This document shows positions 18,876 to 23,083 of a DNA stretch of 64,000 bases, in pieces. A program made the position numbers and the translations under genes. The notes under the pieces are model-generated. The model saw only the letters and a program-made list of their open reading frames with translations. It ran no database searches and was not told the origin of the DNA. This DNA comes from Verrucosispora sp. NA02020 (GTDB taxonomy: Bacteria; Actinomycetota; Actinomycetes; Mycobacteriales; Micromonosporaceae), in NCBI RefSeq assembly GCF_013364215.1, contig NZ_CP054923.1, positions 5,890,001 to 5,954,000 of the forward strand, read 5' to 3'. Each line of letters opens with the position of its first letter. Position 1 is the stretch's first letter.

Positions 18876-21314
<2,439 letters not shown>

Positions 21315-21318
<4 letters not shown>

Positions 21319-21407
21319 TGGGCTTTCCTTTCGTTCGCGACTGCGGGGCTCGCGCACACCAGGCCACGGCCACCAACCGGTCCGCGCCGCTCACTCCTCG
21401 CGCTCAC
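21315..21407 (-). CDS. Coupled 30-codon mini-ORF, copy 2 (next to non-catalytic M16 subunit)
   Basis: GTG at 21407, TGA at 21317-21315. The peptide starts MSARSERRGPVGG and ends VANERKAQ: basic, Arg/Gly rich, no membrane segment. AAAGGAAAG lies 3 bases before the GTG, supplied by the end of the upstream repeat copy. Its stop overlaps the GTG of the M16 gene. It may be a translated spacer that passes ribosomes on rather than a functional peptide; whether it is translated is not known. Confidence 0.4.
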
Positions 21408-21497
21408 CGGGCTTTCCTTTCGTTCGCGACTGCGGGGCTCGCGCACACCAGGCCACGGCCACCAACCGGTCCGCGCCGCTCACTCCTCGCGCTCACC
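21320..21497 (-). repeat. Perfect 89-bp tandem duplication between the M16 genes
   Basis: Copies at 21320-21408 and 21409-21497 are identical base for base. Read on the minus strand each copy begins with the GTGAGCGCGAGG block at a stop/start overlap and ends with a GAACGAAAGGAAAGCCC ribosome-binding region. The length 89 equals 31 codons minus the 4-base GTGA overlap, so each copy is exactly one coupled reading unit. Confidence 0.95.
21404..21496 (-). CDS. Coupled 30-codon mini-ORF, copy 1 (next to catalytic M16 subunit)
   Basis: GTG at 21496 overlaps the TGA of the catalytic M16 gene (GTGA); the stop TGA at 21406-21404 overlaps the GTG of copy 2. Same 29 residues as copy 2, with the last codon CGG instead of CAG. 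Unlike copy 2 it has no ribosome site of its own beyond GGAGGAC near the end of the M16 gene, so it would depend on re-initiation. Confidence 0.4.
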   Translation of the reverse strand: MSARSERRGPVGGRGLVCASPAVANERKAR

Positions 21498-22785
21498 GGT
21501 TGTCCTCCGGAACGTAGGTCAGAGTCGCCCGGTCGGCGGGGGCGAGCACGTCGGCGGCGACCTCGGCGATCTGCTCGGCGGTCACCGCGAGCCAGCCCGG
21601 CAGCCGATCGGCGAGCACCCGGGGGTCACCGAACTGGGTGGTGTACCGGCCCAACGCGTCGGCCCGACCGTCCACCGTGGACATCTGCCGCCACCAGGCG
21701 GTGGTCAGCAGCGCCTTGGCGCGGTCCAGCTCGGCGGCGGTGACCGGCACGGTGGTCAGCTCGTCGATCACCTCGGCCAGCCCGGCGGCCAGTCGCTCGG
21801 CGTCCACGCCGGGACGGGCGGTGGCGGTGGCGATCAGCGGTGCCGGCGCGTGCGCCAGGTCCACCCCGTACGCCCCGACCAGATCCGGCTGGGCGATCCG
21901 CTCACCGTCGGCGAGGCGCTGGTAGAGGCGACTGCCCCGACCGCTGCCGAGCACGGTGGCGAGCACCGTCACCACGTCGTACCCGGGGGTGCCGAAGGGG
22001 TGCGTGCGGTGCGCGACGTACACCCGGGGCGCCGGAACGTCCGCGACCACCGTCTCCCCCACCGGCTCGCCGCTACCGGCGACGACCAGGCCGTCCGGGG
22101 CGGAGGGGATCTCCGGCCGGGGCGGGATGGCGCCGAAGTACTTCTCGGCCAGCGCGGTGACCTCGTCGACGGTCGTGTCACCGACCACGGTCAGCACCGC
22201 GTTGTTCGGTGCGTAGTACGTCCGGTGGAACGCCTGGAAGGTGGCCAGGTCGGCGGCGTTCAGGTCGGCCATCGAGCCGATGGTGGCGTGATGATACGGA
22301 TGGCCCGGCGGATAGAGCAGCGGCAGCAGGCGCAGCCAGGCGTCGCCGTACGGCACGTTCTCGTAGCGCTGACGGCGCTCGTTCTTGACCACGTCCCGCT
22401 GGTTGTCCAGCGTCTCCTGGGTCAGCGCCGGCACCAGGCCGCCCATCCGGTCGGCCTCCAGCCACAGCGCCAGTTCGAGGTGCTCGGCCGGGACCGTCTC
22501 GAAGTAGTTCGTGCGGTCCGGGTTGGTGGTGGCGTTGAGCGAACCCCCCGCGCCCTGCACCAACTTCATGTGTTCGGTCTTGGCGACGTTCACCGAGCCC
22601 TCGAACATCAGGTGCTCGAAGAGGTGTGCGAAACCGGTCTGTCCGGCCGGCTCGTGCCGCGAGCCGACGTCGTACCAGAGGTTGACCGCGACCGCCGGGG
22701 CGGTGCGGTCCTCGCTGACCACCACGCGCAGGCCGTTGTCCAGTCGGGTCGTCGAGATGGGCCAGGGATAACCGCTGTCGGGCAT
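21493..22785 (-). CDS. M16-family zinc peptidase, catalytic subunit
   Basis: 430 residues. Inverzincin motif HLFEH (His54, Glu57, His58) with the third zinc ligand probably Glu136 in KNERRQRYENVPYG. A typical START MPDSGYPWPISTTRLDNGLRVVVSED and the NATTNPDRTNYFETVP block are as in pitrilysin/processing-peptidase-like bacterial enzymes. It cleaves short peptides, probably in the cytoplasm since no signal peptide is seen. First gene of the operon; ends in a GTGA overlap with mini-ORF copy 1. M16 pairs are usually adjacent; here the 89-bp duplication is wedged between them. Confidence 0.95.
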   Translation of the reverse strand: MPDSGYPWPISTTRLDNGLRVVVSEDRTAPAVAVNLWYDVGSRHEPAGQTGFAHLFEHLMFEGSVNVAKTEHMKLVQGAGGSLNATTNPDRTNYFETVPAEHLELALWLEADRMGGLVPALTQETLDNQRDVVKNERRQRYENVPYGDAWLRLLPLLYPPGHPYHHATIGSMADLNAADLATFQAFHRTYYAPNNAVLTVVGDTTVDEVTALAEKYFGAIPPRPEIPSAPDGLVVAGSGEPVGETVVADVPAPRVYVAHRTHPFGTPGYDVVTVLATVLGSGRGSRLYQRLADGERIAQPDLVGAYGVDLAHAPAPLIATATARPGVDAERLAAGLAEVIDELTTVPVTAAELDRAKALLTTAWWRQMSTVDGRADALGRYTTQFGDPRVLADRLPGWLAVTAEQIAEVAADVLAPADRATLTYVPEDNR

Positions 22786-22867: not shown

Positions 22868-23083
22868 TCAGTCCGGCGGCTCGATCGGGGTCACCGTCTG
22901 CTCCGAGGTACGCCGTTCCAGGACGGTGTCCGGTGCGGCGTTGCGGTCGGCCTCGCGGAGGTCCGACTCGGTCAGGATCGCGTCGGCCTGGGCCTGGGGG
23001 TCGTCGCTGCCGACCGCCGCCTCCTCCGGCAGCAGGTGGGCCCGCGACTCGATCCGCTCCTGGTCGCTCTGCGCGTTCGTCAT
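22868..23083 (-). CDS. Small acidic protein, function unknown
   Basis: 71 residues, highly charged (many Asp, Glu, Arg, Gln), with no hydrophobic core: MTNAQSDQERIESRAHLL ... TVTPIEPPD. ATG 23083 with AAGGAA 5 bases upstream supports a real gene. It looks like the short acidic hypothetical proteins common in actinomycetes. It lies 82 bases ahead of the M16 operon and could be co-transcribed with it. Confidence 0.62.
   Translation of the reverse strand: MTNAQSDQERIESRAHLLPEEAAVGSDDPQAQADAILTESDLREADRNAAPDTVLERRTSEQTVTPIEPPD

Follow-up and report, generated by a model that had tools for sequence, protein, structure and literature searches.

Two tandem 89-bp units separate two M16 peptidase genes, and every feature of the locus lies on the minus strand according to the ORF calls for the 64-kb window, the whole stretch of DNA analysed. 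Pfam assigned Peptidase_M16 and M16_C domains to both genes flanking the array. Each unit forms a frame of 30 codons; its GTG overlaps the preceding stop and its TGA the following GTG. The original prediction had described a chain of M16 gene, mini-ORF, mini-ORF and M16 partner joined by GTGA, and the ORF coordinates confirmed this geometry. The features are given in Table 1.

Table 1. Features of the M16 junction (positions in the window)
Feature	Position	Strand	Evidence and remarks
Upstream gene, catalytic-type M16 peptidase	21493..22785	-	Stop TGA 21495-21493 overlaps GTG 21496-21494; ORF; Pfam PF00675 and PF05193
Mini-ORF of unit 1, 30 codons and stop	21404..21496	-	GTG overlaps M16 stop; TGA overlaps next GTG
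Mini-ORF of unit 2, 30 codons	21315..21407	-	TGA overlaps GTG of partner; ORF listing extends to in-frame GTG at 21446
Tandem array, period 89, 2.1 copies	21315..21499	.	Tandem Repeats Finder
Family core, unit 1	21417..21440	-	Core match
Family core, unit 2	21328..21351	-	Core match
Private middle, unit 1	21443..21477	-	35 bases vs 2 in the common 56-bp type; sequence
Shine-Dalgarno-like GAAAGG before unit 2 start	21416..21421	-	Sequence; putative function
Shine-Dalgarno-like GAAAGG before partner start	21327..21332	-	Sequence; putative function
Downstream gene, M16 partner	19972..21318	-	Start GTG 21318-21316, also backed by homologous junctions; Pfam PF00675 and PF05193

Tandem Repeats Finder gave 98% matches for the array. 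The duplication had been called perfect. The 89-bp repeat was exact once the unit start was shifted 1-3 bases earlier; read from GTG to GTG, the units were identical in 84 of 85 columns, and the sole difference was the last base before GTGA. The private middle of the M16 unit was crossed by one weak match in the genome, within a nuoM-N insert (74%, E 3.4e-4; 40 of 91 candidates scored). Immediately upstream of the two M16 genes, an ORF of 71 aa (22868-23083, minus strand) had no Pfam match.

A dispersed repeat family has the same ends as the 89-bp unit, GTGAGCGCGAGGAGTGAGC and GAGYCCCGCAGTCGCGAACGRARG. Unit lengths of 56-65 bp are common in this family, and the 89-bp unit is one variant. The core was matched twice in the window and in none of 100 shuffles. 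At up to 3 mismatches, 29 cores were found in this genome, while a reversed-pattern control gave 0. The Micromonospora "boilerplate" named in the original prediction is thus a real repeat, and the unit recurs both across this genome and in its relatives. All 160 genomes of the genus contained the core at the same threshold, with 5 to 101 copies per genome (control 0 or 1). In a sample of 250 genomes of the family, the core was present in 124: 63 of 63 from the genus and 61 of 187 from other genera. These genomes represented 27 of the 44 genera sampled, own genus included. Three genomes of other genera were rich in cores (G173, G194 and G215, with 65, 58 and 36), and most of those sampled had none or few. 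The element is real, widespread and informative.

Outside the family, the core (up to 2 mismatches) was found in 0 of 293 genomes of a class sample. When 150 genomes of the order were searched by blastn with two units, strong matches occurred only within the family, and those outside it were short and weak (E 8.2e-4 or worse). The nearest named loci belonged to Micromonospora and Salinispora. A phage collection gave no match to the element, and a plasmid search returned one Micromonospora record. This copy lies on plasmid pLB1 of Micromonospora terminaliae (L264:2501-2560), between an acyltransferase gene and a glycerol-3-phosphate dehydrogenase gene; its insert length is 59 and its relay path (defined below) is intact. 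In the same stretch of pLB1, one acyltransferase protein accession is annotated twice. Among the matches listed in the open-access literature, no report of such elements in Micromonosporaceae was found.

The genomic positions of 103 arrays were read from nine genomes, with gene ends set by a frame-based caller. The arrays comprised all but one of the 29 listed sites in this genome, all listed sites in G006, all but two in G003, and samples of the listed sites in six others. Seven rows without both gene ends called and seven with a single-equivalent length outside 40-100 were left out of the junction counts, and 89 were kept. A co-directed gene lay downstream in 101 of 102 scorable arrays and upstream in 97 of 102. 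Most arrays stood directly behind a stop, so the repeat does not occur mostly outside stop/start junctions, which would have told against the original prediction. The upstream stop was TGA in 83 of the 89 arrays, with a G before the TGA in 79. The downstream start was NTGA in 82 of 89 (GTGA 60, ATGA 21, TTGA 1). Host neighbours in this genome were assorted: murG and murC; MurJ-family and glycosyltransferase genes; carboxyltransferase and biotin carboxylase genes; an anthranilate-synthase-like gene and a Trp-operon-associated gene; ArgJ and amino acid kinase genes; two ABC transporter genes; and the nuo operon, whose letters were given from operon order.

Every unit terminated in a GAAAGG/GGAGG-like stretch, and the start followed the end of the core by 7 to 13 bases in 82 of 89 arrays. 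In five arrays the upstream region was called on the minus strand, and there was nothing there to couple. These three observations fit the view that the inserts go untranslated and act as spacers, the downstream gene being driven by the Shine-Dalgarno-like sequence at their end, with the frame kept by descent only. This explanation is judged unlikely in view of the insert lengths and the diverged units described below.

Filled and empty alleles were compared at 13 nuo junctions in each of 20 genomes. Filling was confined to junctions whose empty allele is an overlap: the element was present at 31 of the 160 -4 junctions and 2 of the 20 -1 junctions, and none of the 80 gapped ones had a core. 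The difference between -4 and gapped junctions gave a Fisher p of 1.9e-6, with orthologous alleles being non-independent. In seven nuo junctions, filling ranged from 2 to 12 of the 20 genomes; nuoE-F and nuoI-J, both of the -4 type, were empty in 20 of 20. A plain 4-base target duplication does not fit the base before the left TGA at -4 junctions, which was G in 30 of 31 filled alleles versus 72 of 129 empty ones.

For the M16 pair, the best 30 of the 159 genomes having the gene were compared. An insert was present in 15 of the 30, of which 11 carried the CGCAGT of the core and 4 were shortened or diverged without CGCAGT. A -4 overlap was found in 13 and a -1 overlap in 2. In the nearest relative, G025 (97% protein identity), the two genes simply overlap by ATGA. 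Among 15 named Micromonosporaceae loci, M. craterilacus was the only carrier of the unit. On the M16 tree, at least 8 presence/absence changes were counted (6 when counting starred branches only), and 21 were summed across the seven nuo junctions; the direction of change is not readable from these counts. The filled state of M16 was weakly clustered on the tree, with 54 of 500 shuffles as low. Copy number also differed between species, with 0, 1 or 2 units at M16 and 0 to 4 at nuoM-N. The element has been repeatedly gained or lost at these junctions.

A master element or an end-linked transposase was set aside after a scan of this genome for the left end. Of the 20 matches, a single one lay off the known arrays (C1:1259723, 3 mismatches), the control also gave 1 match, and neither a transposase nor an autonomous copy was seen among the 20.

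The route by which junctions became filled may not be transposition. Filled junctions could instead have spread between species by homologous recombination or gene transfer, and microhomology near RTGA and the ribosome-binding site would on rare occasions give copies at new junctions. The 20 left-end matches yielded no enzyme tied to the ends, the bases preceding the start were alike within a junction even in distant genomes (for example nuoD-E), and one copy is plasmid-borne, all of which agree with this account. However, many unrelated junctions carry the same core, so some copying route to new sites is needed. Spread without transposition is a possible explanation, though not the favoured one.

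The reading frame was followed through each insert. A relay path was defined as a path from the upstream stop to the downstream start via starts overlapping stops by 4 or 1 bases, or via in-frame fusion, and the M16 and nuo starts were set by homology for this scoring. An unbroken relay path was found in 48 of 48 filled alleles (15 M16 and 33 nuo); this and the other frame figures overstate the effect and are not probabilities, since alleles and subtypes share ancestry and the length classes 56/59/62/65 may be partly inherited. With one random 1-nt indel per insert (300 trials), the mean number of relay paths fell to 9.5 of 15 for M16 and 18.0 of 33 for nuo, about 28 of 48 together, with maxima of 14 and 25. 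In the wider sample, a path was present in 81 of 89 arrays versus means of 45.8 after indels and 40.4 after shuffling (200 trials each). Of the eight arrays without a strict relay path, seven have a TAG/TAA stop or a non-NTGA start, and one has a doubtful upstream gene.

The inserts at M16 and nuo junctions had lengths of 27, 35, 36, 47, 53, 56, 59, 62, 65, 71, 86, 89, 92, 104, 112, 113, 136, 146, 170, 178 and 227. Inserts of 2 mod 3 held a single mini-ORF ending at the downstream start. Lengths 112, 136 and 178 formed two-step chains, the window array among them, and lengths 27 and 36 formed in-frame fusions with the downstream gene. By hand count, 19 of 21 distinct nuo junction-length pairs were 2 mod 3; the remaining two were a two-step chain and an in-frame fusion. 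An insert of length 65 before nuoH in G149, with the start set from sequence, also kept the relay. The single-equivalent unit length was 2 mod 3 in 67 of 89 arrays. The frame chain is maintained across indels.

The 89-bp unit of G116 had only 54 to 58 of 85 columns in common with the others, yet its length and open frame were kept. Both this openness of diverged 89-bp orthologues and the persistence of the chain through nuo and M16 inserts of many different lengths, including shortened forms and those with several units, argue against spacers that are never translated. Conservation of the mini-ORF peptide was considered and set aside: variable columns at codon positions 1, 2 and 3 numbered 10/28, 16/29 and 19/28, only a mild excess at third positions. 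At the M16 junction of G003, G093 and G125 (L138, L140, L143), a shortened insert of 27 nt is fused in frame to the partner. The direct GTGA overlap is restored there, and the partner is nine codons longer.

A role of the repeat as an RNA structure or a known regulatory RNA was highly improbable. One 59-bp unit folded slightly better than shuffles (z -1.56), but neither window unit outdid its shuffles (z 1.35 and 1.04), and the L009 array barely did so (z -0.62). The sole overlapping Rfam match was far under the gathering score (20.9 vs 40 bits). Both forms of this candidate were therefore disfavoured.

The 89-bp unit is probably a variant of a MIRU-like insertion element of Micromonosporaceae, which would survive in operons by virtue of a frame that keeps translation coupled. 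This reading was made from sequence comparison. The element occupies junctions at which the stop of one gene had overlapped the start of the next (RTGA, occasionally TRATG). At a filled junction, the first TGA of the element would close the upstream gene, and the inner frame would begin on the GTG overlapping that stop. The end of the element would supply a Shine-Dalgarno-like GAAAGG/GGAGG together with RTGA, stop and start in one. A ribosome leaving the upstream gene could then reinitiate on the mini-ORF, which is presumed to be translated, and be handed to the downstream gene. Tandem copies may arise by local duplication and be tolerated if the frame chain survives, overlap after overlap or by in-frame fusion.

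Termination-reinitiation coupling is reported to be nearly lost at about 20 nt in H. volcanii and E. coli, across six gene pairs (PMC10666635). An untranslated insert of the size found here should then uncouple the genes. Coupling is proposed as the property under selection, and transposition as the means of movement. The element itself would be near-neutral and not a regulator, the surviving copies being those that keep coupling.

The original prediction combined a relay of ribosomes through spacer ORFs with tuning of the subunit ratio. The relay part gained comparative support from the frame chain in all filled alleles; the ratio part did not. In this ratio view, selection would keep the units as regulatory spacers that set how much upstream protein is made relative to downstream protein. 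The intact frame chain and the copy number variation between species at M16 and nuoM-N are compatible with this, but no followed junction was filled in all genomes (M16 15/30; nuo junctions 2 to 12 of 20), and the same element precedes unrelated genes. Regulatory spacers were quite improbable on this evidence. Insertion of the unit as a way for genomes to adjust subunit ratio was likewise not supported, given the patchy distribution in near relatives, the plain overlap in the nearest relative and hosts that are assorted housekeeping operons. The near-neutral, coupling-preserving element proposed above is preferred.

Several known systems resemble this element. Mycobacterial interspersed repetitive units (MIRU) are reportedly the subject of a 1997 paper by Supply and colleagues (said to be Mol Microbiol 26:991). 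MIRU are oriented like adjacent genes and are not known to have dyad symmetry. Palindromic repeats of the REP/BIME type occur as many short dispersed intergenic copies. The present element shares with REP/BIME its many short dispersed copies between genes. Unlike REP/BIME, it is oriented with genes and ends at a start codon, and no strong hairpin was found in the stretches folded.

Like MIRU, the element is oriented with the genes in nearly all arrays (101/102 downstream, 97/102 upstream). On dyad symmetry, the four element stretches folded here gave the z-scores above (1.35, 1.04, -1.56 and -0.62). MIRU is described as a short, apparently mobile repeat placed at start codons; an ORF inside the repeat is coupled at -4 nt to the gene, and the host operon is little affected (PMC12548453). 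The present element is likewise located at start codons or stop/start overlaps, with a coupled ORF at -4 nt. Its small ORF overlaps the neighbouring ORFs at both ends (48/48 nuo and M16 alleles; 81/89 arrays), and its tandem copy number is variable, here between species (0-2 at M16, 0 to 4 at nuoM-N). Unlike MIRU, it occurs in a different bacterial family and not in mycobacteria. No clear sequence relative was found in the samples of other families of the class and order, and the likeness rests on description, not sequence. The element was classed as MIRU-like and not as MIRU because it is absent from mycobacteria and has no clear relative in the other-family samples, MIRU being known here by description only.

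The logic of insertion at stop/start junctions is not new, since it is already described for mycobacterial MIRUs (PMC12548453). Translational coupling by leader peptides or uORFs is also named there (PMC12548453). In such coupling a short ORF delivers the ribosome to the next start, a trait that the present element would share. The present case differs in that the short ORF is part of a repeat at many unrelated operon junctions.

The results suggest that insertion into translational-coupling sites occurs outside mycobacteria as well. A broader speculation is that ribosome-passing insertion elements form a general class in Actinobacteria with several independent origins; an open frame together with stop-start ends would hide such elements from operon translation, and the spacer frame would be under lasting selection since broken copies would uncouple important gene pairs. 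This generalization is rather doubtful at present. The element provides many natural filled/empty pairs in housekeeping operons. As coupling is reported to collapse over about 20 nt, the inserts amount to natural experiments asking whether ribosomes can cross a spacer by way of a short ORF. Caution is also needed with annotation, since the start of a downstream gene can wrongly be placed inside such a mini-ORF.

A nested second repeat ending in GTCGCGGGC was observed in some inserts: at nuoM-N in L164, at nuoD-E in L170, and at both nuoC-D and nuoD-E in L174. The frame chain was unbroken in these inserts.
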